This document shows positions 9,643-51,668 of a stretch of 51,668 bases of DNA, in pieces; within the stretch, counting starts at the first letter, position 1; each line of letters starts with the position of its first letter. The DNA comes from a virus: positions 1-51,668 of the IMG/VR virus record IMGVR_UViG_3300048930_000171; one strand, written 5' to 3'. Both the position numbers and the translations under genes were made by a program. The notes under the pieces were generated by a model. The model saw nothing but the letters and a program-made list of their open reading frames with translations, was not told where the DNA came from and made no database searches.

Positions 9643-9689
9643 GTTGTAAAATGCACCGTGCAATAATACAAAGATTCCCATTTTACAAC
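9643..9689. repeat. 11-bp perfect inverted repeat
   Basis: GTTGTAAAATG (9643-9653) and CATTTTACAAC (9679-9689) are perfect inverted copies separated by 25 bases in the AT-rich region. No T-run follows, so a terminator is unlikely. It fits a pair of operator half-sites or an origin stem. Confidence 0.55.
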
Positions 9690-9727
9690 CACAACAGCTT
9701 AACACTATTTAACAACCATTACAAACT

Positions 9728-9760
9728 TGTAATGTTCCTGTAATGTTCCTGTAATGTTCC
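9728..9760. repeat. Three perfect 11-bp tandem units (TGTAATGTTCC)
   Basis: TGTAATGTTCC is repeated without gaps at 9728-9738, 9739-9749 and 9750-9760. The 11-bp period places each unit on nearly the same face of the helix. It resembles iterons or a tandem operator and lies about 80 bases before the first early gene. Confidence 0.7.
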
Positions 9761-9807
9761 CTATGTTACTGTAGCGTCATAGGGTTAATTAATACCTTAT
9801 GTTAATA

Positions 9808-9835
9808 ACTTGAACATAACTTGAAAGGACTTGAA
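9808..9835 (+). promoter_or_regulatory. Triple ACTTGAA array over the first early gene's ribosome-binding site
   Basis: ACTTGAA occurs at 9808, 9819 and 9829 (spacing 11 and 10). The ribosome-binding AAAGGAC overlaps the third copy, which ends three bases before the ATG at 9839. An almost identical array with the same phasing lies at 15856-15883 before another rightward operon, so the two blocks are probably co-regulated, at DNA or mRNA level. Confidence 0.6.
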
Positions 9836-9838
9836 CAC

Positions 9839-9985
9839 ATGAGAACACTTAGCGAAATAATGCGCGAGCAGATAAACCTGGCTTATCCAGTTGATTGCTT
9901 GGATTCTGGCTTCGATGATATGCAGCCGGAAGAATCCTTCTTCTATGAAACCCCGATGACGTACGAAGAAATGGAGTCGTTTTAA
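9839..9985 (+). CDS. Small acidic early protein
   Basis: A 48-residue ORF begins 3 bases after the triple ACTTGAA array, with AAAGGAC as ribosome-binding site. It is strongly acidic in its second half (SGFDDMQPEESFFYE, then TYEEMESF) and has no recognisable family. As the first gene of the first early block, beside the likely origin, it is a candidate host-takeover or regulatory peptide; small acidic early phage proteins often mimic DNA or bind host enzymes. That role is speculation. Confidence 0.65.
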   Translation: MRTLSEIMREQINLAYPVDCLDSGFDDMQPEESFFYETPMTYEEMESF

Positions 9986-10013
9986 CATGACAAACACAAG
10001 AGGACAACAAACA

Positions 10014-10214
10014 ATGCTAAAATACGTTTCAAACGAATCTTACAACAAACTGGTTGCAGCACTGGAAGCAAGGCAAAAATTACTTGCTAGTCACCGCGCA
10101 GAAAAAGAAACCAGCACCTACAAGTCACTTAACCTTGCTGGCAAGCTGGCAGTAGGTGACAGGCATAAGGCTGAATGGGAAGCGGCTTGTGCTGTAGTTG
10201 AATCTGCAAAATAA
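10014..10214 (+). CDS. Small early protein of unknown function
   Basis: The product has 66 residues from the ATG at 10014, preceded by AGAGGACAAC. An in-frame ATG at 9987 lacks a ribosome-binding site and may be a relic of the duplicated ATGACAAACACAA stretch that also starts the next gene. The protein is helical and charged (ALEARQKLLASHRAEKE, then DRHKAEWEAACAVVESAK). No family is recognised. Confidence 0.6.
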   Translation: MLKYVSNESYNKLVAALEARQKLLASHRAEKETSTYKSLNLAGKLAVGDRHKAEWEAACAVVESAK

Positions 10215-10249
10215 CTAAACTTCAACCACTAATTTTAAGGACAAACAAC

Positions 10250-10582
10250 ATGACAAACACAAAACACACGCCACTACCTTGGAAAATTCACAGCGTAACG
10301 GATAAGCATCATATCCAGATTCGTGCCAAAAAAGCTGGAACTGAATTTGAATGCTCGCCAGCGGTTCTGGGTGGTTGGGATACAAGCGCAGAAGAAAACG
10401 AAGCAAACGCACAATTCATCACCCGCGCATGTAACAGCCATTATGAATTGCTGGAGGCTTTGAGGTTGCTACTGGAAGATTCTTATAATGCAATCGACAA
10501 CAATAACCCTATGCAAATTAGGGAGGCAACGCTTATTCAATCCCGCGCCGCCATAGCCAAAGCAAAGGGGGAAGTATGCTAG
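10250..10582 (+). CDS. HTPxPW-type small phage protein (paralogue 1)
   Basis: The 110-residue product follows the widespread phage pattern: start with KHTPLPWKIH, a beta region, then NEANAQFITRACNSHYELLEAL and a final helix ending AIAKAKGE. A paralogue with the same layout is at 25033-25332. These proteins are common in early accessory regions of phages and have no established function. There is an AAGGAC ribosome-binding site. The last seven bases overlap the next gene. Confidence 0.7.
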   Translation: MTNTKHTPLPWKIHSVTDKHHIQIRAKKAGTEFECSPAVLGGWDTSAEENEANAQFITRACNSHYELLEALRLLLEDSYNAIDNNNPMQIREATLIQSRAAIAKAKGEVC

Positions 10583-10770
10583 AACGCCTCAACACCCCTT
10601 GGCTGGCATTGGTAACACTGGGAGGGTTTATAGCCCTTGGCTGGGCTTCCTATCCTACCCCACGCCTCAACTGCCAGGACTTAGGCCGCTGTAACCTGCA
10701 AACCGGTGAGGTTTACGATATGGAAGCCTTAGAGCAGTCTAAGGCGTTTGCTGAACTTTTTAACCAATAG
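10576..10770 (+). CDS. Small single-span membrane protein
   Basis: The product has 64 residues. A hydrophobic segment at about residues 7-26 (TPWLALVTLGGFIALGWASY) is followed by a polar tail with two cysteines (LNCQDLGRCNLQTG) and an acidic end. It could be a membrane-anchored protein with the C-terminus in the periplasm, where the cysteines could pair. It starts inside the end of the preceding gene (ATGCTAG). No family is recognised. Confidence 0.6.
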   Translation: MLERLNTPWLALVTLGGFIALGWASYPTPRLNCQDLGRCNLQTGEVYDMEALEQSKAFAELFNQ

Positions 10771-10783
10771 AAGGAATAGGAAT

Positions 10784-11014
10784 ATGAAAATACGCTTTGC
10801 AATAAACCAAGTAGGATTAAACGTTGAATACTTCGCGCATGGTGACTGGCGTAGTGCTGGTATGTTTAACCACGATTCTATCAAAAAACATGGTGGAATT
10901 GCCAATCTAAAAACTAAGGCTCTTTATTCGCTGTATCCATCTTGCAACATGCAACAAGAGGTAATGCCAGCGGGCGATTATAGCGAAAACGGCATGACTA
11001 TTACTTGCGTATAA
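10784..11014 (+). CDS. Small early protein of unknown function
   Basis: The product has 76 residues from the ATG at 10784, chosen for the AGGAATAGGAAT site upstream; an in-frame start at 10748 would overlap the previous gene. The sequence is mixed alpha/beta with KIRFAINQVGLNVEYFAHGD and ends GDYSENGMTITCV. No recognised family. Confidence 0.6.
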   Translation: MKIRFAINQVGLNVEYFAHGDWRSAGMFNHDSIKKHGGIANLKTKALYSLYPSCNMQQEVMPAGDYSENGMTITCV

Positions 11015-11048
11015 CAACAACACAAACAACAAAGAAGGAATGAGATTT

Positions 11049-11291
11049 ATGAAAAAACTATATGTAACGATGACCGATAAATTTATGTCTGGCTGGGGTA
11101 AGGCTGAAGGCAAAATAAACAAGTTTGTTGTTGAGTGTGACAACTGGCAGCAAGCTGAAATAATCGAACGCAACGCAAAAAAGCGTAGCGAAATGAAGCA
11201 TATAAACATCAACACGCGCAAGCCTTCAGGGAGCAAATATCTAGTTTCTTTACGCTCTTTTGATGAACTCGGCGCAATTTGGAAGGCATAA
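11049..11291 (+). CDS. Conserved small phage protein (MTDKFMSGWG family)
   Basis: The product has 80 residues from the ATG at 11049 with GAAGGA upstream. The pattern LYVTMTDKFMSGWGKAEGK, NKFVVECDN, AEIIERNAKKRSEMKHI belongs to a small family that occurs in many phages of Gram-negative bacteria. It has no known function. The C-terminus is basic. Confidence 0.7.
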   Translation: MKKLYVTMTDKFMSGWGKAEGKINKFVVECDNWQQAEIIERNAKKRSEMKHININTRKPSGSKYLVSLRSFDELGAIWKA

Positions 11292-11295
11292 GCAT

Positions 11296-11667
11296 ATGAC
11301 AAAATCATTCACACAAGAAAATGCCTTTATCTTAGAGGCAATAGACGCAAGTGGATATAACCAGAATCCTTTAACTGATAGGGAAAAACTGCAATTCTTG
11401 CTTGATACATTCATGGCTGAATATGGCTGGCATGTAAAACAGGTTGGACAATTCAAAGCCTTGCAAAATTGGCTCATGGGGTTACCAAGTGCAATCAATA
11501 TCCCATTTCAAAACTACGATATTTTGCAGATTGCAAAAACGTGGGGATCATTGCCAGAAAACGCCACAGAAAAACAAGAGGATAAACTTTTAGCTAATTA
11601 CTGGGCATTTATGGCAATGCGGATAATCAGCTTGTGGAAGAAACACAATATTAAGGAGGCGGCTTAG
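11296..11667 (+). CDS. Conserved phage protein of unknown function
   Basis: The product has 123 residues from the ATG at 11296. It is rich in helices and aromatic residues (AEYGWHVKQVGQFKALQNWLMGLPSA, then LLANYWAFMAMRIISLW). The pattern of a GWH...F..LQNWL.GLPS segment is familiar from early phage proteins near HTPxPW genes. No catalytic motif. It ends one base before the next gene. Confidence 0.6.
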   Translation: MTKSFTQENAFILEAIDASGYNQNPLTDREKLQFLLDTFMAEYGWHVKQVGQFKALQNWLMGLPSAINIPFQNYDILQIAKTWGSLPENATEKQEDKLLANYWAFMAMRIISLWKKHNIKEAA

Positions 11668-11668
11668 T

Positions 11669-12025
11669 ATGAACGAACCCATAGAAATAAAATCAGGAGA
11701 GCGGTTTATAATCGGCACTAAATCTTATTCAGATACAAATCTGGACACAGTAACCGCGTTAAAAGACATCTTAACCGCTGATTTTGAGCGTATGCACAAA
11801 GAGATAGAAAGCTACGTTGAAAGTAACGAGAACCGCTACAAATCCGGCTATGAATTAATAACCGCTTGGCTTGTGCATAACGGTTATGTAACCCTGCCAG
11901 ACTATCCAAAAGAGTTACACTTTCATTATGAATCGGACATTAAAGAGGCGTTTATTCACAATAATGAATATCAAAAGAAAGACTTTGACGAGGCGTCAGA
12001 GATTATTAGGAGCATAAACCCATGA
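11669..12025 (+). CDS. Hypothetical early protein
   Basis: The product has 118 residues and is charged, with a central helix (LTADFERMHKEIESYVESNENRYK) and a short hydrophobic patch (ELITAWLVHNGYVTLPDYP). No family is recognised. Its ribosome-binding site AAGGAGG lies inside the previous gene. It ends in an ATGA overlap with the next membrane peptide. Confidence 0.6.
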   Translation: MNEPIEIKSGERFIIGTKSYSDTNLDTVTALKDILTADFERMHKEIESYVESNENRYKSGYELITAWLVHNGYVTLPDYPKELHFHYESDIKEAFIHNNEYQKKDFDEASEIIRSINP

Positions 12026-12162
12026 ACCACCACACACGCCGCCACAAACTAGCCACGCGCAACGACACAAGGGATATAATTCTGTATGCCCTGTTCCTTC
12101 TTGCCGTGGTAACTGCAACTTTATTAATCAACAACTGGGTTACTGAAAGGGTAATGTTATGA
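12022..12162 (+). CDS. Small basic single-span membrane peptide
   Basis: A 46-residue ORF begins in an ATGA overlap with the previous gene and ends in another with the next. The basic N-terminus (NHHTRRHKLATRNDTR) is followed by one membrane span (IILYALFLLAVVTATLLI). This suggests insertion with the N-terminus in the cytoplasm. Function unknown. Confidence 0.55.
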   Translation: MNHHTRRHKLATRNDTRDIILYALFLLAVVTATLLINNWVTERVML

Positions 12163-12254
12163 ACGCCATAGACAAACACGCAATTAGCCTACTCGCCTGG
12201 GCTGGCTTGCTCCTTGCCGTGGGGTATTGGTATATCAGAAGGGAATATTTATGA
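12159..12254 (+). CDS. 31-residue membrane peptide
   Basis: This ORF is tied by ATGA overlaps to both neighbours. It consists almost only of one span (AISLLAWAGLLLAVGYWYI) with a basic end (RREYL). It may act with the preceding and following membrane peptides. The unbroken chain of overlapping start and stop codons is the main support. Confidence 0.5.
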   Translation: MNAIDKHAISLLAWAGLLLAVGYWYIRREYL

Positions 12255-12403
12255 TAATTGAACCCACAATATCGGTTTCCCATTGGGGGCTATTCCCTGA
12301 GCCACCCAAGCGGCGCATTACTGACCGTAAGGAGTTGCCGTCTATAATCCATAGGTACAGAAAACCGCAGGACGCCCCTTGTTTTGTGGAGGCAACAGCA
12401 TGA
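12251..12403 (+). CDS. 50-residue early peptide
   Basis: This ORF is coupled by ATGA overlaps on both sides. It is rich in proline and basic residues (FPEPPKRRITDRKELPS, HRYRKPQDAP). No family is recognised. It is likely soluble. Confidence 0.5.
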   Translation: MIIEPTISVSHWGLFPEPPKRRITDRKELPSIIHRYRKPQDAPCFVEATA

Positions 12404-12555
12404 GAAAGCCAACAATCTATGAAGCCTTAGCCGCTAGACTGGAACGGACGCCAACGCACCGCGAGCAGTGCGAGGAAGTGAAACGCATACTGGAAGAAGG
12501 CGCGCGCGAGCGTGCAGAGCAAGGCAAACTTAACCAACAAAGGGGAAGAATATGA
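12400..12555 (+). CDS. 51-residue charged helical peptide
   Basis: This ORF is coupled by ATGA overlaps on both sides. It is helical, with alternating acids and bases (AARLERTPTHREQCEEVKRI, EEGARERAEQGK). No family is recognised. A GGAGG site lies shortly before the ATG. Confidence 0.55.
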   Translation: MRKPTIYEALAARLERTPTHREQCEEVKRILEEGARERAEQGKLNQQRGRI

Positions 12556-12734
12556 GTATTATAAAAGACTTATACCAGGCTGAACTTGAGGCCATAGAAG
12601 CCGAGGCGGAGGAATCCGGCCAGCCGTTAAGTGGAACAGAGGCGGGAAAACTTGCATACAATCGCGCCGTTGACCGCTTTGCGGATATGTGCGATGCAGC
12701 GAAGGATAGGGCAAAAGAAAGGCGGGGGTTATGA
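12552..12734 (+). CDS. 60-residue acidic helical protein
   Basis: This ORF starts in an ATGA overlap with the previous gene and has GGGGAAG before the ATG. It is an acidic helix (YQAELEAIEAEAEESGQ), followed by NRAVDRFADMCDAAKDRAK. No family is recognised. It ends in an ATGA overlap with the next gene. Confidence 0.6.
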   Translation: MSIIKDLYQAELEAIEAEAEESGQPLSGTEAGKLAYNRAVDRFADMCDAAKDRAKERRGL

Positions 12735-12883
12735 AATTCATAGCACGCTACATGCACCGGCGTCACGAACAGCCTGAATATTTCCGCACCATATACGCGG
12801 ATAGCATAAACGAGGCAATCAACACAGCCACACGATACACCCGCAAGGGGTATATTATGACCGGATGCAAGGGGGAATATTAA
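12731..12883 (+). CDS. 50-residue basic early peptide
   Basis: This ORF is coupled by ATGA overlap to the previous gene, with a GGCGGGGG run before the ATG. It is basic and aromatic (FIARYMHRRHEQPEYFRTIY) and ends GYIMTGCKGEY. The ASINEAINTATRY-type segment resembles small phage proteins with an amphipathic helix. Function unknown. Confidence 0.5.
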   Translation: MKFIARYMHRRHEQPEYFRTIYADSINEAINTATRYTRKGYIMTGCKGEY

Positions 12884-12884
12884 T

Positions 12885-13016
12885 ATGATAAAGGCTATTC
12901 AATGGCACGCGCTCGCCTTCTTTGTAATGGTATCTGTGGCAATACCGCTGATATTGACCGGCATTGCCTATGCGCTCGCGGTTCTGGCAACATGGCTATT
13001 TGGTGGAGGGTATTAA
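12885..13016 (+). CDS. 43-residue two-span membrane peptide
   Basis: The ORF starts one base after the previous stop, with GGGGG upstream. Nearly all of it is hydrophobic (ALAFFVMVSVAIPLILTGIA, then ALAVLATWLFGGGY). One long or two short spans are possible. It is a candidate holin-like or superinfection-related peptide, but there is no direct evidence for either role. Confidence 0.5.
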   Translation: MIKAIQWHALAFFVMVSVAIPLILTGIAYALAVLATWLFGGGY

Positions 13017-13017
13017 T

Positions 13018-13236
13018 ATGAACGTAGGCGACCAATGGCTTCCGCCTTTTGAACTAAGCGCAAAGAACTTATATGGAACGGTGCGATACTTCCCGATGTG
13101 CGACCTGTCACGGGCAATTTGCATGGTAAGGGGCAGGAACAACAAGACACTTCTGCTTGAGCATATCAACGCGCTAAGTGCGGCTGGCTTCAAATTCCGC
13201 ATTACCGACTGGAACGGGGCAGTAGAAATCCTGTAA
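13018..13236 (+). CDS. Small protein closing the first early block
   Basis: The product has 72 residues from the ATG at 13018 with GGAGG upstream. Sequence includes DQWLPPFELSAKNLYGTVRY and a C-terminal LEHINALSAAGFKFRITDWNG. No family is recognised. It faces the primase gene end-to-end with only 16 bases between the stops. Confidence 0.6.
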   Translation: MNVGDQWLPPFELSAKNLYGTVRYFPMCDLSRAICMVRGRNNKTLLLEHINALSAAGFKFRITDWNGAVEIL

Positions 13237-13252
13237 GTTGGAACGTGGGCAT

Positions 13253-15493
13253 TTATGTTGGTGCATACCTGTAAACAGCCGATGCCCGCGTTTTACTTTC
13301 TGAACGCTCCGCTATAATCATGTCCTGATTAAGTAGTGAGGTAATAATATCATCCATTTCGCGTGACTTATACTTGCGGAAGCGGGTGCATAGCTTGGTG
13401 CGCGTTACACCGGCATCGCCAGCCTTGCGGATAAAGTCCTGTACCTCAATGATTGCGCCTTCGTAGTCGGTTTCTGGCAATCTGTCGCCTATCAGGCTGG
13501 TCATGTAGTGGATGGACTTATCCACCAGATGCACGGCTACATCAAAGTCAGACTCGCGCATCTCTGGCACTTCTTTGTTGCGGGCAATAGCAAATATCAT
13601 GGCTATCTTAATGATGTTCTCATGCCGTCTGCCCCATAATGGTGCGGATATATCGCCGCTGTGCATCATGGCATCCTGCTCAAGTGCAAGATTCCACTGC
13701 AATTCATCGCAATCACCCCATCCGACAATCTTTGGTGTAACAGGAACGGAACCATTAGTTGCAGTGCTAAGGCTGTACTCGCCTTGAGAGAATCGCGCCC
13801 ATCCGTCAATTAAATCCTCCGGCGGCTCGGCAAAGTGATGCACGCGCCTGCGTGGAACGGGGTCAGCCTTGATTGCCATCACGCGATTTAGCTCGCCGCT
13901 TTCCACTGCATCTTTGCTCAAAGCCTTGACGTACTCCTTCTCGGTGGTCGTGCCATATACGCACAGGTTGGGATTCTCGATGGTAATGGACTCATTCAGC
14001 TTCTTGTTGGCGTAATCACCGTGGCTGTAGCTGCTACCGGATTGGCTGTAGAGTGCCATGAGCAATGTCTTTATCTTCTTGTTATGCGATGGTGCTTTTT
14101 TATCGCTGATGGATTGCAGTACCAGCCCCCACTCATCCAGCATAAGCACCTGACTTGGCCGGTCATATAGACTACGGGCAACGCCAGTATCAGATATAAC
14201 GCCATGCGCACCGCCAAACTCCACAAGTCCTGCCTCCCTTGCCAGCAGGGGAAGCTTAACGCGGCTGTGGTTCTTACCAGTTGCCGTGTTTGCCACACCC
14301 ACCAGATACAGGTTGGTGCGGGTATTGATAGGACTGGCATACCGCCTGCCAAATACGGCACCAGCCCATGCCAGAACGTGGAGCAGGGCGAGCGTAGGCA
14401 TAGGGAACATGGCATCGGAGCATATCCAACGCACGGTATCGCCAATCAGCCCTTCCAGCTTGAGCGGGTCAAACTCCTTGTCTTTAGCCTTGCGCGCCGG
14501 TGCAGGCTTAGGCTCCGCCTTTTCCTCGGCGTGAATTACCCGTGATTTATCCGTGAACTTTTCTGCAAACGCATCGGCAAGGGATGTGTCGGCTTCAGGG
14601 CGGATGATAGGCTCAGGCCGCCAGCCATTTAAGCGTGCCTGGTCAAAGAGCGTGGCAATGGTAATGCCTTCATTGCGGAATGACTGCCACTTTCGCCACA
14701 TCTCCTTACCATTATACTTAGGGCTACCGGAACTCCATGAATCCCATATCTCAAATCCTTCTGAGCCAAATTCATCTGACAAAGCCATAGCCATCTCAAC
14801 CCATAGCCAATAGTCGTCATTCGGGACATAGCTCAACGCCTCAGCCGCCTCACCCTTTGGATTGTCAGCTTGAAATACCGGCCTCGCCTTTGGCTTGGGC
14901 ATCGGCTTCTCAGATAATGGCACAGGCTCAGATAGCCTCCATTCCGGCTCAGCCAACGGCTCTCCTTTGGGGGAATATGGCAGGATGAACTGGTTGCCGC
15001 AGCCTCCCATCGGCACATGGTCTTGCTTTGGGAACACCTCCACTTCCTTCTTGGCAACCCCGCCGGTGCCGTTCTTGTAGCCAATCTCCGCCATTGCATC
15101 GGTAAGCAGCTTGCGCACGCTGTACGCATCTTGCGGCTCATCCCATATCGCTACAAGGTGTATGCCCTTGCCGCCACTGGATACAAAGCCATCGAAGTAA
15201 ACGCCATGCGGCTTGAGCGTGTCATATAGAAGCTGGGCGGCTTCCAGCATATCATCCCACGCCGTTTCGCCCTTGTGTGAGTCAAGGTCAAGCAGGGCAA
15301 GGCGCGTAGTGGATTCCCCTTCCTTGATAGGGCATACGCCGCGCAGTTGCTTGCCATCTAAATGCGCCTGTATGCGCTCGCTGGTAAGCGGCTGGTCACG
15401 CTTCCAGATGGATGCCCCGTCAGGGGCTTTGATAGCTGTGATGTCGGTTCTTACGCGGTCAAGTATAGGACGCAGATGGTCTATGGTGTGCAT
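13253..15493 (-). CDS. Primase-helicase (AEP primase + PriCT + DUF3987-type ATPase)
   Basis: The product has 746 residues. Residues 60-160 hold an archaeo-eukaryotic-type primase core: DLD at 69-71 (ALLDLDSHKG), SSGGKGIHL at 105-113 and EVFPKQ at 152-157. Residues about 210-290 match a PriCT-2 domain (EALSYVPNDDYWLWVEMAMA, WDSWSSGSPKYNG). The C-terminal half has the ATPase pattern GVANTATGKNHS near residue 400, QVLMLDEWG as Walker B, and a winged-helix-like end. It should make primers and unwind DNA for replication. It follows the regulator gene after four bases, so it is controlled with it. Confidence 0.85.
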   Translation of the reverse strand: MHTIDHLRPILDRVRTDITAIKAPDGASIWKRDQPLTSERIQAHLDGKQLRGVCPIKEGESTTRLALLDLDSHKGETAWDDMLEAAQLLYDTLKPHGVYFDGFVSSGGKGIHLVAIWDEPQDAYSVRKLLTDAMAEIGYKNGTGGVAKKEVEVFPKQDHVPMGGCGNQFILPYSPKGEPLAEPEWRLSEPVPLSEKPMPKPKARPVFQADNPKGEAAEALSYVPNDDYWLWVEMAMALSDEFGSEGFEIWDSWSSGSPKYNGKEMWRKWQSFRNEGITIATLFDQARLNGWRPEPIIRPEADTSLADAFAEKFTDKSRVIHAEEKAEPKPAPARKAKDKEFDPLKLEGLIGDTVRWICSDAMFPMPTLALLHVLAWAGAVFGRRYASPINTRTNLYLVGVANTATGKNHSRVKLPLLAREAGLVEFGGAHGVISDTGVARSLYDRPSQVLMLDEWGLVLQSISDKKAPSHNKKIKTLLMALYSQSGSSYSHGDYANKKLNESITIENPNLCVYGTTTEKEYVKALSKDAVESGELNRVMAIKADPVPRRRVHHFAEPPEDLIDGWARFSQGEYSLSTATNGSVPVTPKIVGWGDCDELQWNLALEQDAMMHSGDISAPLWGRRHENIIKIAMIFAIARNKEVPEMRESDFDVAVHLVDKSIHYMTSLIGDRLPETDYEGAIIEVQDFIRKAGDAGVTRTKLCTRFRKYKSREMDDIITSLLNQDMIIAERSESKTRASAVYRYAPT

Positions 15494-15497
15494 AAGC

Positions 15498-15776
15498 CTA
15501 CACCTCGTGACTGCGGATTACCTCAACTAATCGGGGATTGTTTACTATCTTCCAGTAAACATCCTCCGGGATTTTTCGCGCTTCATTTATCAGCACATCA
15601 CTTTGAATATCGTAATAAATAGCCAGCTTATAAAGAAGCTCTAGCTTTGGCCTGAACGCCTTGTCTGTTTCTAGTTGTGCAAGATAAGCCACGCTCACAC
15701 CGCACCTGCGGGACACGTCTTTTAGGGTTAACTTCTTGTTTTTTCTTGATTCTCTTAGTCTTTGTGATAATTTCAT
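15498..15776 (-). CDS. XRE-family helix-turn-helix regulator
   Basis: The product has 92 residues. An N-terminal HTH (SQRLRESRKNKKLTLKDVSRRC, then GVSVAYLAQLE) runs to about residue 60 and matches the Cro/C1 type, with a short C-terminal part (EDVYWKIVNNPRLVEV). It is transcribed leftward with the primase-helicase and faces the rightward recombination operon across about 108 bases of control DNA. It probably represses one or both divergent promoters. No cleavage domain of the LexA/CI type is present. Confidence 0.85.
   Translation of the reverse strand: MKLSQRLRESRKNKKLTLKDVSRRCGVSVAYLAQLETDKAFRPKLELLYKLAIYYDIQSDVLINEARKIPEDVYWKIVNNPRLVEVIRSHEV
15539..15561. repeat. Palindrome inside the regulator gene
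   Basis: TGTTTACT (15539-15546) and AGTAAACA (15554-15561) are perfect 8-bp inverted arms with a 7-base spacer within the 3' part of the XRE gene. The spacing is operator-like. It could be an internal binding site, or chance in coding sequence. Confidence 0.35.
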
Positions 15777-15795
15777 AAAATCTCCCGATTTTCTA

Positions 15796-15838
15796 CTTTA
15801 CATAGAATTGATACCATGCTAGTGTGTTTCTTGTAAAG
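15796..15838. promoter_or_regulatory. Divergent promoter/operator between regulator and recombination operon
   Basis: CTTTACA (15796-15802) and TGTAAAG (15832-15838) form a 7-bp inverted repeat. TTGATA (15808-15813) and TGTAAA (15832-15837), 18 bases apart, can be read as -35 and -10 rightward. Their complements TTTACA and TATCAA can be read as -35 and -10 leftward. Two face-to-face promoters over one operator would give a simple switch. The -10 matches are only moderate. Confidence 0.4.
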
Positions 15839-15855
15839 AGGAATTTTTTACACAA

Positions 15856-15883
15856 ACTTGAACCAACTTGAGAAGGACTTGAA
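15856..15883 (+). promoter_or_regulatory. Triple ACTTGA(A/G) array over the recombination operon's ribosome-binding site
   Basis: ACTTGAA, ACTTGAG and ACTTGAA begin at 15856, 15866 and 15877 (spacing 10 and 11). The ribosome-binding GAAGGAC overlaps the third copy, which ends one base before the ATG at 15885. It is the sister of the array at 9808-9835. Confidence 0.6.
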
Positions 15884-15884
15884 A

Positions 15885-16310
15885 ATGACTGAACCAACCG
15901 ACGATGAAATCCTGCGCCTTATAGAGAAGGCGGAAGCCACCAAAGCGGTGTGTGACCGTAACATCAAGAAGCATAAAGCTACGCTCCTTGACCGCCGCGA
16001 GAAAGAAATCCAAGCATTACTAAAGGCCAAAGACGAACCATTTGGCGATGTCACCCTTATTGTGGGCAACCACAAGGTAAAGGTGAATGTGCCGAAGAAG
16101 GTAACGTGGGAGCAGTCAAAGCTGGCTGAGAAGCGCAAGACTATTGTGGATGCCGGTGACAACCCTGATGTGTATATTGATACGGAGTACAGTATCAGTG
16201 AAACGGCATATAAGAAATGGCCGGACGAAGTGCGTGAGTTCTTTCAAGATGCGCGTACTGTTATGCCAGGTAACCCGAGTTTGAAAATCATTGAAGAAAA
16301 AGGAGAGTAA
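15885..16310 (+). CDS. Conserved protein partner of the recombination ATPase, function unknown
   Basis: The product has 141 residues from the ATG at 15885, set by the GAAGGAC site; a start at 15858 would lie inside the repeat array. The N-terminus is a charged coiled coil (EILRLIEKAEATKAVCDRN, KKHKATLLDRREKEI). The C-terminal part (FGDVTLIVGNHKVKVNVPKK, VTWEQSKLAE, then YISETAYKKWPDEVREFF-like) is a beta/alpha domain seen next to AAA ATPase and DUF669 genes in many phages. It is often labelled Gp157-like or hypothetical. Confidence 0.65.
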   Translation: MTEPTDDEILRLIEKAEATKAVCDRNIKKHKATLLDRREKEIQALLKAKDEPFGDVTLIVGNHKVKVNVPKKVTWEQSKLAEKRKTIVDAGDNPDVYIDTEYSISETAYKKWPDEVREFFQDARTVMPGNPSLKIIEEKGE

Positions 16311-17234: not shown

Positions 17235-17792
17235 ATGGGTTTCGGATTTGATACAGACGAGTATGAGCGCACAGTTGGGGGCGGCGGTTCTAATCCGCTT
17301 CCAGTAGGATTCTACGGCATGGTTATTACCCGCTCGGTAATTAAGCCAACTAAGGCAGGCGATGGCAAGTACCTTGAGGTGGAGTTTGATATTGCAGAGC
17401 CTTCGGAGTATGGCAACCGTAAGTTCTGGGATAAGTTCAATATCTTCAACAAGAATCCTACCGCGCAGAAGATTGGCCGTGAGCAGCTTTCTGACTTGCT
17501 TAAAGCCATTGGCTTGAGTGGCGATGCAGAGCCGGATGACATGGTTGGCGCATCGGTCAATGCGTACCTGCTGATTGAGCCAGCCAAGGGGGATTGGGAG
17601 GCCAAGAACAAGTGCGGCAAGTACCTGCCTACCGGCACGACTGAGGCTGACTACCAAGCGTGGCTTGCTAAGGCCAAGGGTGCTGCGAAATCTGCTGTGC
17701 CTGAGAAGAAGTCGTGGGGTGCTGCTACACCTGCGGCTGCTGCTGCTGAACCTGCTGCGAAAGCTGTGCCTAGCTGGAAGAAGAAAGCATAG
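17235..17792 (+). CDS. DUF669 protein, probable single-stranded-DNA-binding protein
   Basis: The product has 185 residues. The core (NPLPVGFYGMVITRSVIKPT, GKYLEVEFDIAEPSEYGNR, WDKFNIFNKNPTAQKIGREQ) is the DUF669 fold. DUF669 proteins are OB-like, and in several phages they serve as or with the SSB beside AAA ATPases. The C-terminus is an Ala-rich linker ending in a basic SWKKKA tip, unlike the acidic tip of cellular SSB. It follows the ATPase gene with a two-base gap and an AAAGGAG site. Confidence 0.8.
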   Translation: MGFGFDTDEYERTVGGGGSNPLPVGFYGMVITRSVIKPTKAGDGKYLEVEFDIAEPSEYGNRKFWDKFNIFNKNPTAQKIGREQLSDLLKAIGLSGDAEPDDMVGASVNAYLLIEPAKGDWEAKNKCGKYLPTGTTEADYQAWLAKAKGAAKSAVPEKKSWGAATPAAAAAEPAAKAVPSWKKKA

Positions 17793-23180: not shown

Positions 23181-23483
23181 TTAAGAGCCATAGCCATAGC
23201 CATCGCCAGAGCCAGAGCCATAGCCATAGCCATCGCCAGAGCCATCGCCATCGCCATAGCCATCGCCAGAGCCATAGCCAGAGCCATAGCCAGAGCCATC
23301 GCCATAGCCATAGCCATCGCCAGAGCCATCGCCATAGCCATAGCCATCGCCAGAGCCATCGCCAGAGCCAGAGCCAGAGCCATCGCCAGAGCCAGAGCCA
23401 GAGCCAGAGCCATAGCCATAGCCATAGCCATCGCTAATTGAATGGCCGTGATGGCTATTTTTTGTCTTCAACAAATTTGGCAT
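23181..23483 (-). CDS. [DYS]G dipeptide-repeat protein
   Basis: From the ATG at 23483 a 100-residue frame gives a short basic start (MPNLLKTKNSHHGHSIS), then exactly 41 dipeptides DG, YG or SG, and a stop right after the repeat. It overlaps the preceding gene by 29 bases. GCGGA lies about nine bases before the ATG. The other two minus-strand frames give (MA/LA)n running on into the next gene, or a stop-interrupted frame. Gly-Tyr-Ser low-complexity tails occur in phage proteins next to DUF6948-like genes. Expression from this frame is probable, not proven. Confidence 0.5.
   Translation of the reverse strand: MPNLLKTKNSHHGHSISDGYGYGYGSGSGSGSGDGSGSGSGDGSGDGYGYGDGSGDGYGYGDGSGYGSGYGSGDGYGDGDGSGDGYGYGSGSGDGYGYGS
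23187..23432. repeat. 41 tandem hexamers GCCA(TA/TC/GA)
   Basis: On the plus strand the hexamers GCCATA, GCCATC and GCCAGA follow each other without a break for 246 bases. Only the last two bases vary and they do so in a codon-wise manner, since the minus strand reads [D/Y/S]-Gly. Repeat-length change by slippage is likely. Confidence 0.9.
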
Positions 23484-23838: not shown

Positions 23839-23892
23839 TTTGTTTCCTTTCAAAAGTTGCTGGTTTTGAGCAGAGCCAGTGTGCTTTAGTGG

Positions 23893-24201
23893 TTAGGCGG
23901 CTTCGGATGGCGATTGCGAATCTCCGCTGGTGTGGTTCGATACCATGCCAGTGCCAGTTAGCTCTTTTACAATCCACATTACGGATTCTTCTAACGATGT
24001 GAGGGCAAGTGAATTGTAACGCCCACCGCATACCTTTGCGTAAAGCTGTTCCATTTCCACGGCTTTGTTTTTGATTTCATCATGCAATGCTTTCTCATCT
24101 TCACTCAATGCACGATAACGAGGCCGAAAGCGGCTATGTTTAATTTCACCCGCTTGTCTTGCGTCTAGGTTGCCTTGAAATACGTTTTCTTTATTTTCCA
24201 T
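23893..24201 (-). CDS. Candidate Acb2/Tad1-hook-like protein (cyclic-nucleotide sponge)
   Basis: The product has 102 residues from the ATG at 24201 with AGGAGAG upstream. Residues about 25-85 read FRPRYRALSEDEKALHDEIK, KAVEMEQLYAKV and RYNSLALTSLEESVMWIVKE. The order is R-x-L-(S/T)-x-x-E-x-x-L-x-x-x-I-K, a second helix, R-x-x-S-x-x-x-T-x-L-x-x-x-x-M. It matches the helical hook of Acb2 and Tad1 proteins, which bind CBASS or Thoeris signal nucleotides. The C-terminal 20 residues are a polar tail. Assignment is by eye, so moderate. Confidence 0.55.
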   Translation of the reverse strand: MENKENVFQGNLDARQAGEIKHSRFRPRYRALSEDEKALHDEIKNKAVEMEQLYAKVCGGRYNSLALTSLEESVMWIVKELTGTGMVSNHTSGDSQSPSEAA

Positions 24202-24478: not shown

Positions 24479-24760
24479 TCACTGCTTCTCCCTCTGTGCC
24501 AGTGTACTCGCCGCCACAGATTCAGCGTTTCTTTTAGCATCATTAAGCTCATGACCAGCCAGTGATTGCGCTTCCATCAGCTTTGAAATGGCCGCGCTTA
24601 CAATATGCTGGTTGGCATGTATGTAGCCCTGCATGAGTTCTAGCTGCGCGTTCCAATCGCTGAACGTCCGGTTCATGGTGCGGAGTTTGTCTATTACTTC
24701 ATCAGCACCGCCGAGCAACCCACCCGCTTTGCTGGCAACGGCTTTACTGGTTTTCTTCAT
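24479..24760 (-). CDS. Small helical protein
   Basis: The product has 93 residues with AAAGGA before the ATG at 24760, which lies inside the end of the HTH gene. It has a basic start (MKKTSKAVASKAGGLLGG), then long helices (EVIDKLRTMNRTFSDWNAQ, QSLAGHELNDAKRNAESVAA). No family is recognised. It is co-transcribed with the regulator. Confidence 0.55.
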   Translation of the reverse strand: MKKTSKAVASKAGGLLGGADEVIDKLRTMNRTFSDWNAQLELMQGYIHANQHIVSAAISKLMEAQSLAGHELNDAKRNAESVAASTLAQREKQ

Positions 24761-24938
24761 AGGTAAAATCCTTTGCTGTTACTTTGCCATTAGAGGCTGT
24801 TTCTATTTTCCGTATTGTCTTTAGTGTAATGGATTTATTAGTTAGTGCATGGTAAATTGTTTGCCTAGAAACACCGCACATATCAGCGAATTGCTCCCAT
24901 GTAAGGCGGTTTTTCTTGATGTAATCATTTAATTTCAT
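24744..24938 (-). CDS. Cro-like helix-turn-helix regulator
   Basis: The product has 64 residues from the ATG at 24938; a start three codons earlier is possible. The HTH reads TWEQFADMCGVSRQTIYHAL with the recognition helix in SRQTIYHAL. The protein is little more than the DNA-binding domain, as in Cro or YdaS types. It leads the leftward block that ends with rusA and lies opposite a strong rightward promoter. It probably controls both promoters. Confidence 0.8.
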   Translation of the reverse strand: MKLNDYIKKNRLTWEQFADMCGVSRQTIYHALTNKSITLKTIRKIETASNGKVTAKDFTYEENQ

Positions 24939-24965
24939 AAAGTACATTTTTCTGTATTTTGTGTG

Positions 24966-28031: not shown

Positions 28032-28784
28032 ATGCTATCATTTCACAACGAGCAATCAACTAAAGATAAATACCTGAGTCGTGTACGCGCGCATCAGAAA
28101 GCAGATAACCTCATTCGAGGTACTGGATGGGAGGGTGGCAAGGGGTGTGCTGTTGGATGCACATTGGAAAATTACGATCATTCACAATACCCTGTAGAGC
28201 TTGGGATACCAGAATGGCTTGCCAGAGTTGAAGATACATTATTTGAAGGCATGAGCGAGAAAAAATCACACACATGGCCTGAGAAGTTCCTTGAAGCTAT
28301 ACCGCTTGGAATAACTGATGAGCAATTTGAACGCAAGGTAAAAGCACCATTCCTTATTATCGTTCTTGAAAGTGCGCTTACGTCTTTTGACCATGATAAA
28401 TTTCCTGATGTTAAGAAATGCCTTGATGCATCAATCTCGCTTTGGAGGCGCGAAGATATAGGAAGCGATGATTGGAATAAGGCAGCAGCATGGGCAGCAG
28501 AGGCAGCAGAGGCAGCAGCATGGGCAGCACGGGCAGCAGAGGCAGCAGCACGGGCAGCAGAGGCAGCAGCACGGGCAGCACTGGCAGCAGAGGCAGCAGC
28601 ACTGGCAGCAGCACGGGCAGCACTGGCAGCAGAGGCAGCAGCACTGGCAGCAGCACGGGCAGCAGCACTGGCAGCAGCATGGGCAGCAGAGGCAGCAGCA
28701 TGGGCAGCAGAGGCAGCAAAATACGATTATTTCGCTGATGAGCTTCTGAGGATGCTTAGTAATCTAACAACCGATAAGGAGTAA
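28032..28784 (+). CDS. Phage protein with a long Ala-rich helical repeat
   Basis: The product has 250 residues. Residues 1-150 are a globular domain (SFHNEQSTKDKYLSRVRAH, GWEGGKGCAVGCTLENYDHS, PEWLARVEDTLFEGM). Residues about 151-229 consist of AA(A)X units with X = W, E, R or L (AAAWAAEAAEAAAWAARAAE, and so on), predicting a long amphipathic helix with charged and aromatic edges. A short tail follows (YDYFADELLRMLSN). Similar GWEGGKGCAVGC...WAAxAAxAA proteins exist in other phages without known function. It is a cassette flanked by 19-bp direct repeats. Confidence 0.75.
   Translation: MLSFHNEQSTKDKYLSRVRAHQKADNLIRGTGWEGGKGCAVGCTLENYDHSQYPVELGIPEWLARVEDTLFEGMSEKKSHTWPEKFLEAIPLGITDEQFERKVKAPFLIIVLESALTSFDHDKFPDVKKCLDASISLWRREDIGSDDWNKAAAWAAEAAEAAAWAARAAEAAARAAEAAARAALAAEAAALAAARAALAAEAAALAAARAAALAAAWAAEAAAWAAEAAKYDYFADELLRMLSNLTTDKE
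28482..28718 (+). repeat. Trinucleotide-type repeat (GCAGCAx) coding for poly-Ala units
   Basis: About 237 bases consist of GCAGCA or GCAGCAGCA followed by TGG, GAG, CGG or CTG. Nearly all Ala codons are GCA, so the array is recent or kept uniform by slippage. The spacer codons differ only at the first two bases, as in the hexamer array at 23187-23432. Confidence 0.85.
28766..28784. repeat. 19-bp direct repeat, right copy
   Basis: This copy encodes the last codons and stop of the Ala-rich gene (TTDKE) and supplies the ribosome-binding site of the next gene. It is identical to 28010-28028. Confidence 0.85.
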
Positions 28785-49004: not shown

Positions 49005-51668
49005 TTGTAGCAATTTTCATTACAGTAGCAAGCAATGTGCATGGCATCGGAGCCATTGCTTCCAAGCATAATCTTGAATCCGTATCAAACTCTTGCTCAA
49101 ATTCAAAAGGACGCTCATCATATTCTTCCCATACGATGTCAGCAGTCACTTCCTCGCCATTCTCAAACAGCGGCATCTCATCCATATTGTCAAAGTCACG
49201 GCCATACCTTAAGCCTCGATTATGCGTATTACGCAGAATCACCCCAAGCTGCTCGATTCTCTTGCTTTGCAATAGTGCCGTGCCGCCCTGCGCGGCATAA
49301 GCCAGTTTCACGCTTTTATATCTTGCTTTATATGGCAACCCGACAACATAATCTGTCACGGCTTCCGGCAGGGTTATTTGCCCGCCAGTCACGGTAAATG
49401 TAGTCTGCACCCCATTCACGCGCGGCGAGTAACACTTTCCGTTCGCCCACACAATGACAGCCTCACCCTCAAGATGTGACAAGCCCGTAATAGTGGCACT
49501 TGAGCTTTGCGTGCCATCAAGGAAGCAATCAGCCTGCTTATTCTGTGTGCCTCCCACGCAATCTGCTTCCAGAGCGAAACGCTCCCTGTATCTAACTGTG
49601 CTACCGTTTATTATCCGCTTTATTATATAATAAACATAGTCCTCTGATAGCGCGGAGACTGCGGGCTGCACAATAACATCCTCAACAATTCCGTCTGTTT
49701 CAAAATCAATCCAGCACCGCATATCCTCGTTACGGTCAAACACCAACACCCCCGCCGTACCATTGCTCCTTATGCAATGAATGCGCGTATCTGGGTATCT
49801 TTGCACGGCAATCCTAGAAAACCCGCTGACGCCAATTTCAGGCACATATGATGTAAGGTCAACTGTCTTGTATTCCAGTTCCCCTGCATCATAACGCAGC
49901 TCAAACAAGCGGTCTCCCCTGACAAACAAGCCAGATGTGTCAACTTTTACAGGCGCGACATTCGTGCTTCCTCGCGTTGACGGGCTTTTTATATTGAAAA
50001 CTGTGGGAGTAATAGGCTCGTCAAGGGAGTTCGACCTTATAACTCTTTCAGACATCTCGGCGCCAATGACAAGACGCTGCAACGGCAGAAGCCAGTTTAT
50101 CCTGTCGATTGGCCCAGAGCCTATGCTACGAATAATAGGGCCAGAATCACCTTCTATGGTATCATCAAAACTCTCAAAAGCATCAGAAACAGAGCCGTAT
50201 ATATTATCTTTCCCGGCCCACCATAGCCTTCCTTCATCAAAAGCAACCGCTGATGGATACCCACGGCGTGGAGACCATGAACTCTCAGACCAGGATGTGC
50301 TGCCACCAGTGCTACCAAGCGCGGTTAGGACAATGGCATTCACAGAGGTAGAGCTGTTAAAAGCTGTAACCCTGGCAATCCCGGTTATGCCGCCGCTTGC
50401 ATATGACATCCCAACATTGACAGTCCCAGATGTATAGCCGCTAGATAATATACCAAGTCGGTAATAAACAATCTGGTTATCCAGCCCATCATTGTAGGTG
50501 CTTGAAACACCAGATGTGTAGCTCTCAACAGTCACCCATGAGCCAGGCTCAGATACAGACCGCTGGAGAACAACCGTGGCAGAGAATACACCGGACACAG
50601 AGCGTGTGAATGCACGCTGTGCGCCAACTCCAATAACGCGAATCTCGCCACTAAATTGACTGCTACCCGTTAGAGTGGCGTTCACAGACTGACCGATAGA
50701 CGTGGTACGATACAGAGAGCCGACACTACCAGAAGAAAAAACAGCCTTTGAAGCCGTTAATGTTATATCTCCAGTTAGCCCCGATGGGGCAATGGATATT
50801 TGTGATATATTCTCAGCCCTGAAAGGACCATCTTCGCTTAAATACTCAGCCACGCCCCATGAGCGGGCTGCTCGCCTCTCAATCTTGTATTGCCTAATCC
50901 CATTGCAAGCCACATAGATTATATCTGCGGATTGGTCGTATCTGATAAATGGCAAATCATCCTCGCCCCACGCAGTTGGGATAGCAACATCACCGGCGGC
51001 CTCTAATGTTATAGAATCAACAAGCGACTGATATTGCGTCGATGCCGATACCGTAATGTGGAAGTTACCTGTAGGCGTAAAAGCAAAAGAATATTCACCC
51101 TCGCGCAGCGTTGCTTCTGGCACATATTGCTCGCCATCCGCAGATGAGCCGACCTTGAACTTAACTACGCCCCTATTGATTTTGACCCTTATTCCATGCT
51201 CTACATTTATATTGCCGCCTGATACAGTAACCTGCTGCGTTCTTATGGCTGAATTTATACCTGTGCCAACAAGCCCCATATACCCGCCCGCCACCCATTG
51301 CGACGTACACCCAGCTTCGTCAGCGTCCGTCCATGATGTTAAAGTTGTATCAAAGCCTCCGTTTGCGATGGCTGAAGATACAGATGGCCTGGATATAGCC
51401 ACGTCATCTATCAGCACTCGCATTGCATTATCAGTAAGCTCTATTTGAGCCTGGTCAGACAGGGCGTAAATGAAATTTAGATGATACGCCTTGCGATTCA
51501 AGTATGTTGACCCACGATATTCCGTACCAGCGCGCAACATCATACTTCCAAGCACCCTGGGCATCCAATTGGTTTGCACCTCTGCCGATAATGCTGTTCT
51601 TTCTATGTCAAGCCGCGCCAGCGCAAGAGGTGACATGCGACCACGATTGAAAGCAAGCAAAGGGACAT
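48991..51668 (-). CDS. Tail tubular protein B-like (T7 gp12-type), main part of gene split by the window edge
   Basis: This is the gp12-like nozzle protein, 896 residues with the N-terminal segment at 1-140. The conserved opening is EVQTNWMPRVLGSMMLRAG, with RGRMSPLALARLD before it. The middle has WGEDDLPFIRYDQSADIIYV and WSPRRGYPSAVAFDEGRLWW, typical of podovirus nozzle proteins. The C-terminal half has GVSGFSRIAVQRYPDTRIH, with GLRYGRDFDNMDEMPLF near the end. Bases 51542-51668 duplicate 1-127. It forms the tail nozzle below the gp11-like ring. Confidence 0.8.
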   Translation of the reverse strand, partial: VPLLAFNRGRMSPLALARLDIERTALSAEVQTNWMPRVLGSMMLRAGTEYRGSTYLNRKAYHLNFIYALSDQAQIELTDNAMRVLIDDVAISRPSVSSAIANGGFDTTLTSWTDADEAGCTSQWVAGGYMGLVGTGINSAIRTQQVTVSGGNINVEHGIRVKINRGVVKFKVGSSADGEQYVPEATLREGEYSFAFTPTGNFHITVSASTQYQSLVDSITLEAAGDVAIPTAWGEDDLPFIRYDQSADIIYVACNGIRQYKIERRAARSWGVAEYLSEDGPFRAENISQISIAPSGLTGDITLTASKAVFSSGSVGSLYRTTSIGQSVNATLTGSSQFSGEIRVIGVGAQRAFTRSVSGVFSATVVLQRSVSEPGSWVTVESYTSGVSSTYNDGLDNQIVYYRLGILSSGYTSGTVNVGMSYASGGITGIARVTAFNSSTSVNAIVLTALGSTGGSTSWSESSWSPRRGYPSAVAFDEGRLWWAGKDNIYGSVSDAFESFDDTIEGDSGPIIRSIGSGPIDRINWLLPLQRLVIGAEMSERVIRSNSLDEPITPTVFNIKSPSTRGSTNVAPVKVDTSGLFVRGDRLFELRYDAGELEYKTVDLTSYVPEIGVSGFSRIAVQRYPDTRIHCIRSNGTAGVLVFDRNEDMRCWIDFETDGIVEDVIVQPAVSALSEDYVYYIIKRIINGSTVRYRERFALEADCVGGTQNKQADCFLDGTQSSSATITGLSHLEGEAVIVWANGKCYSPRVNGVQTTFTVTGGQITLPEAVTDYVVGLPYKARYKSVKLAYAAQGGTALLQSKRIEQLGVILRNTHNRGLRYGRDFDNMDEMPLFENGEEVTADIVWEEYDERPFEFEQEFDTDSRLCLEAMAPMPCTLLATVMKIATNEKV
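51542..51668. repeat. Second copy of the 127-base contig-end duplication
   Basis: This stretch is identical to bases 1-127. See the entry for the first copy: the tail gene joins in frame across the ends, so only one copy belongs to the genome. Confidence 0.9.

Follow-up and report, generated by a model that had tools for sequence, protein, structure and literature searches.

Tandem ACTTGA hexamers at the ribosome-binding sites of two operons in a viral genome

Two rightward operons of a viral genome, lying 6 kb apart, each begin with a short leader in which the hexamer ACTTGA is repeated three times, directly before the first ATG. The genes that follow are different in kind, and the question raised by the locus is what a repeat so placed would be for, and whether it would be read as DNA or as RNA.

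Two arrays and their genomic setting

The window, that is, the whole 51,668-nucleotide stretch of DNA that was analysed, carries a 127-bp direct repeat at both termini (1-127 and 51542-51668; the copies are identical), and for this reason it is probably a complete genome of approximately 51.5 kb. Genes for a terminase, a head-tail adaptor, the major head protein, internal virion proteins and tail proteins are all present, which suggests a podophage; the group concerned is poorly sampled. Other features of the genome are a tRNA-Arg gene (anticodon gcg) at 23883-23955 and long 6-bp and 9/12-bp repeat arrays at 23186-23431 and 28480-28718, the last of which falls within an ORF at 28032-28784.

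The left array (9808-9834, plus strand) is composed of units at 9808-9813, 9819-9824 and 9829-9834, with spacings of 11 and 10, and the right array (15856-15882, plus strand) of units at 15856-15861, 15866-15871 and 15877-15882, with spacings of 10 and 11; the two match at 25 of 27 positions. In both, the last spacer is occupied by a plus-strand Shine-Dalgarno sequence, AAGGA (9825-9829 on the left, 15873-15877 on the right), and the end of the last hexamer is separated from the ATG by 4 nt on the left (ATG at 9839) and 2 nt on the right (ATG at 15885). An initial annotation, made from the letters of the sequence, had described three ACTTGA copies at 10-11 spacing before two operons, overlapping an AAGGAC ribosome-binding site and ending one to three bases before an ATG. 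Each part of this description is exact, the distances to the ATG being 3 (left) and 1 (right) when the trailing A is counted. The array stretches are predicted to be mostly unpaired.

Preceded by an AT-rich intergenic stretch of approximately 0.5 kb, the left array stands before a 48-aa ORF (9839-9985, plus strand) for which neither a family nor a relative was found, and which is followed by a series of small genes, mostly without known family. The right array heads a recombination/replication operon in which the phrog_2480 gene (15885-16310, plus strand; DUF7173-like, below the Pfam cut-off) is followed by genes for a Sak4-like annealing protein, an SSB-like protein (17235-17792), a Cas4-type exonuclease and a helicase; upstream of this array lie a divergent XRE (HTH_3) repressor gene (15498-15776, minus strand) and then a primase gene. 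The genes behind the two arrays are unrelated, as had been stated.

Single copies of ACTTGA occur in the window at chance level (22 observed, 20.4 expected); pairs of the form ACTTGA-N2..6-ACTTGA were found four times against an expectation of 0.01. Among 150 order-3 Markov genomes, triples of any 6-mer at 10/11 spacing arose at 0.07 per simulated genome, and in none did one 6-mer form two such triples. Chance is ruled out by these simulations together with the excess of pairs. A relaxed scan of the window, tolerating up to 3 mismatches over the 18 unit positions, returned the two arrays as its sole matches. A coding repeat was likewise ruled out, TGA or TAA stops interrupting the left array and the arrays of the three relatives described below.

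Conservation among relatives

Orthologues of the right operon were located on four viral contigs (L123, L124, L125 and L144), and the scan for triple ACTTGA that the initial annotation had proposed, giving only two places in the window, found arrays, in degenerate form, in three of the four. In L144, the first gene of which has 61% protein identity, three perfect units are spaced 10 and 10; L124 (79%) has ACTTGA, GCCTGA and ACTTGA at spacings of 11 and 10; and L125 (66%) has ACTTGA, ACCTGA, ACTCGA and ACTTAA at spacings of 10, 10 and 10, its fourth unit having been added on the upstream side while the 3' end of the array stayed fixed. In these three the last hexamer comes directly after AAGG and ends 2 nt 5' of the ATG. 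L123, which stands nearest to the window in protein identity (first gene 81%), has kept the gene and its AAGGAC Shine-Dalgarno sequence without the array: its leader holds only AAGGACAACAGAATG, and a different simple repeat (ACAA) occupies the array's place. Relatives that keep the genes and lack the arrays had been named in advance as evidence against a functional element; such a case was thus encountered in L123, and the opposite in L124, L125 and L144.

All five arrays (two in the window and one each in L124, L125 and L144) have the 3' unit fused to the Shine-Dalgarno sequence, a 3' end of the form (A)AGGACTTRA, spacings of 10 or 11 only and three to four units; the distance from hexamer to ATG is 2 nt in four of them and 4 nt in the left array. 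Between genomes, arrays are identical at 22-26 positions, compared with shuffle maxima of 18-21 (for L125 and L144, 23 positions compared with a maximum of 20), while over the 40 nt farther upstream most pairs agree no better than shuffled sequence, the window's right locus and L124 being the exception, and fourfold sites of the most distant pair, the window's right operon and L144, are identical at 15 of 37 (approximately 40%). As the arrays match above shuffle while most upstream flanks and the fourfold sites have diverged, the hexamers, judged from these alignments, are under selection, spacers of either 4 or 5 nt being tolerated. Because relatives have kept the element while the surrounding DNA changed, a candidate regulator that controls both gene groups probably docks there. 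The proposal of a shared regulon is supported in that a non-coding element common to two operons is selected in relatives.

Other searches returned no further example. Left-operon relatives (L244-L247) have no array. When viral and genome contigs were scanned with the pattern, L124 and L144 were recovered, and all other hits were tandem repeats of coding or unrelated nature or single matches of the kind expected by chance. In blastn of the leaders against named phages, no match covered more than 64% of the query, nor did any reach an E value below 0.1; no array was present in the loci fetched for DUF7173 homologues from 754 proteobacterial genomes, and the genome contig scan gave no sign of a host regulon. 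Tandem CTTGATAGGA arrays with a 10-bp period, matching part of the pattern, were observed in three unrelated contigs (L189, L146 and L200), where they lack the Shine-Dalgarno/ATG context of the window arrays. A described element of the same layout was found neither in Rfam, named phages or the viral and genome contig patterns nor in a limited literature search, and the arrays are best filed as a tandem-site operator, a known kind in a variant layout.

Control regions and candidate binders

A functional Shine-Dalgarno sequence needs a transcript start upstream of it. On the right, a promoter is predicted at 15797-15825 (TTTACA-17-TAGTGT, plus strand), the -35 element of which aligns with TTGACA of L125 and L144; this TTKACA element is aligned across the three control regions and reads TTGACT in L123. 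In the window, L125 and L144, 47-65 nt separate the end of the predicted -10 element from the ATG, and the arrays begin 28-38 nt before the ATG. On the left, the best-scoring promoter-like pair, TTGTAA-17-TGTAAT (9727-9755, plus strand), is a weak prediction. Given these predicted promoters upstream, both arrays are probably transcribed and lie within mRNA leaders, the prediction being weak for the left operon.

Inverted repeats that differ in sequence are found 5' of the two arrays, just upstream of the left one (9778-9801, possibly a hairpin) and between promoter and array on the right (15832-15852). The latter is probably an operator of the XRE repressor, or else an RNA hairpin; it has half-sites in common with the -35 region (TTTACA/TGTAAA in the window, TTGACA/TGTCAA in L144), a pattern suggestive of a repressor operator altered in step with the XRE protein. 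In the left control region, an exact triple of TGTAATGTTCC with an 11-bp period (9728-9760) overlaps the best promoter prediction and constitutes a second helically phased array there, without a Shine-Dalgarno sequence. A perfect 11-bp inverted repeat, GTTGTAAAATG/CATTTTACAAC, was also noted at 9643-9689, and its TTGTAAA core recurs at 15831. With this core at both control regions, both may be targets of the XRE repressor, although the window shows no enrichment of TTGTAAA.

The XRE repressor itself, 28-41% identical to its counterparts in the relatives, is probably not the protein that binds the arrays, since its identity falls to 28% in L144, where the array is intact, and the closest XRE protein (41%) is that of L123, which has no array. 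The presence of the array does not co-vary with the repressor across relatives, and the array as XRE operator was rejected on this ground. The only other HTH protein recognised in the genome is a small one encoded at 24744-24947 on the minus strand (HTH_3, weakly YdaS-like), an HTH_17 match being sub-threshold; its gene points away from a rightward gene cluster whose families are mostly undefined. Pfam and PHROGs scans of the genome named no RNA-binding repressor or RegA-like protein, and most of the small genes are family-less. No match to a tyrosine or serine recombinase (PF00589, PF00239) was found in the genome, and an attP site served by an Apl/Cox excisionase was ruled out for lack of an integrase or resolvase; the genome likewise has no match to CII (PF05269), which removes a lambda CII-activated promoter, and the window none to Rfam, which removes an Rfam element as the identity of the arrays. 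An antisense element, allowed for in the initial annotation, has become less likely: the changes in variant units are T to C three times, G to A once and A to G once, and four of the five would break pairs rather than give G-U, the T to C and G to A changes losing G-U pairing.

RNA or DNA as the target

The lock of the arrays to the Shine-Dalgarno sequence and ATG is the reason for favouring a reading of them as cooperative multi-site translational operators in the mRNA leaders of both rightward operons, a view held with slightly less than even confidence. A candidate regulator, probably phage-encoded, would bind at least three adjacent ACUUGA units of an unstructured mRNA; with the last unit interlocked with the Shine-Dalgarno sequence and abutting the AUG, binding would exclude the 30S subunit, and both operons would be turned down together, perhaps once early product is sufficient. 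The model starts from what is directly at hand, namely that the arrays exist, are conserved and keep a fixed position relative to Shine-Dalgarno and ATG, with promoters predicted upstream; from this we infer transcription of the whole array, binding by a protein, repression, and RNA rather than DNA as the target. RNA as target fits the fixed relation to Shine-Dalgarno and ATG, the upstream growth in L125 and the largely unpaired leaders, and the lock holds both in two unrelated genes and in orthologues 61-79% identical in protein. A precedent is T4 RegA, which represses many mRNAs through unstructured sites at or just 5' of the AUG (PMC3014915). As with RegA, the sites here are unstructured and abut the initiation codons of unrelated early mRNAs (two genes, at 2 and 4 nt); unlike the arrays, RegA sites are single, without clear sequence conservation and not described as tandem, and a RegA-like protein is not recognised in this genome. 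Against the model stand the exclusive 10/11 spacing, which is expected for one face of B-DNA, the lack of any recognised RNA-binding protein, and the retention in L123 of the gene and AAGGAC but not the array. Flexible RNA linkers need not be so regularly spaced. The ATG lock in the window genes would, moreover, also be expected if one leader had been copied onto the other. The narrower proposal of a tandem, single-stranded ACUUGA repressor that acts cooperatively, with a built-in ribosome-binding site, to co-ordinate two early operons is put forward more tentatively still.

That regular spacing is what a tandem DNA operator would explain, and this reading is a real possibility, if a doubtful one. 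A small phage DNA-binding protein would bind the hexamers head to tail on one helix face, just downstream of the start sites, and repress both operons either as a roadblock or by extending along the DNA as far as the promoter, as phage 186 Apl or P2 Cox does. Apl has 6-bp operators at 10-11 bp spacing, three adjacent ones being needed for efficient binding (PMC7498355), and three hexamers at 10-11, totalling 20-21, are the usage of tandem DNA-binding proteins (PMC7498355; PMC3335776). The arrays share this grammar, in that 6-bp units recur in the same direction every 10-11 bp, number three or more and are present at two loci, the helical-turn spacing and unit number of RDF/Apl-type sites being present in all five arrays; one Apl locus is the lysis-lysogeny control region (PMC7498355), and the right array lies within a divergent repressor/early control region. 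The TGTAATGTTCC triple and the second small HTH protein also speak for it. Unlike Apl operators, however, the arrays sit downstream of predicted promoters in a fixed relation to Shine-Dalgarno and ATG. The Shine-Dalgarno sequence in the last spacer and the ATG 2-4 nt beyond the arrays are left unexplained by this reading; unlike Apl/RDF systems, the genome has no integrase or recognised RDF (AlpA/Cox/Xis). With recombinases and CII not found, an excision role falls away, and the XRE repressor is a poor candidate on the identities given above. The PhoP box of the OmpR family is likewise a hexanucleotide direct repeat, its units 5 nt apart (11-bp spacing; PMC3335776), and the arrays resemble it in this; OmpR-family boxes act at promoters, mostly upstream of -10, whereas the arrays place three to four units on the ribosome-binding site, and the scan of genome contigs gave no hint of a host regulon. 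The initial preference for translational control stands only in part: the Shine-Dalgarno lock (5 of 5) and the predicted upstream promoters support it, and the use of the same hexamer spacing by tandem DNA-binding proteins tells against it.

It is improbable that the AACUUGAA repeats are a translation enhancer, raising initiation as an unstructured leader for ribosome standby or for the binding of S1. The arrays are mostly predicted to be unpaired and lie directly 5' of Shine-Dalgarno, as does the T7 gene 10 enhancer, an A/U-rich element which works at shifted positions (PMC8748333), and L123 has another simple repeat (ACAA) at the array's place; yet the T7 element is single and 9 nt long, with no spaced hexamer repeat, an enhancer has no need of an exact hexamer three times at 10/11 spacing before two unrelated genes and in distant relatives, and no further window gene carries an array. 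Lambda nutL and nutR stand as one copy at the head of each early operon, and the arrays, too, head two early operons in single copy. A nut-like, transcript-borne processing or antitermination site is nevertheless very unlikely, as neither a boxB-type hairpin with a conserved loop nor an Rfam match was found, the Shine-Dalgarno overlap is atypical and the inverted repeats that precede the arrays are not alike in sequence. Least credible is that the arrays have no function and arose when slippage duplicated the Shine-Dalgarno region, with one copying event inside the genome. Slippage gives rise to tandem repeats, and the two arrays of the window agree at 25 of 27 positions, but orthologues with approximately 40% identity at fourfold sites (15 of 37, L144) retain the hexamers, the spacers show compensating 10/11 changes, and array conservation in L144 and L125 largely refutes this origin.

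The arrays mark a two-operon regulon and offer a compact, 27-nt operator with natural three- and four-unit variants and a natural loss (L123). Were they to act on DNA, helix-phased tandem operators would be found on the ribosome-binding site, which is not their usual place, and in a phage in which no integrase is recognised. Action on RNA would make them a translational operator of modular build that incorporates its own Shine-Dalgarno sequence, and the tandem ACUUGA repressor, if true, would make of them a modular, countable RNA operator unlike those of RegA, gp32 or hairpin operators.
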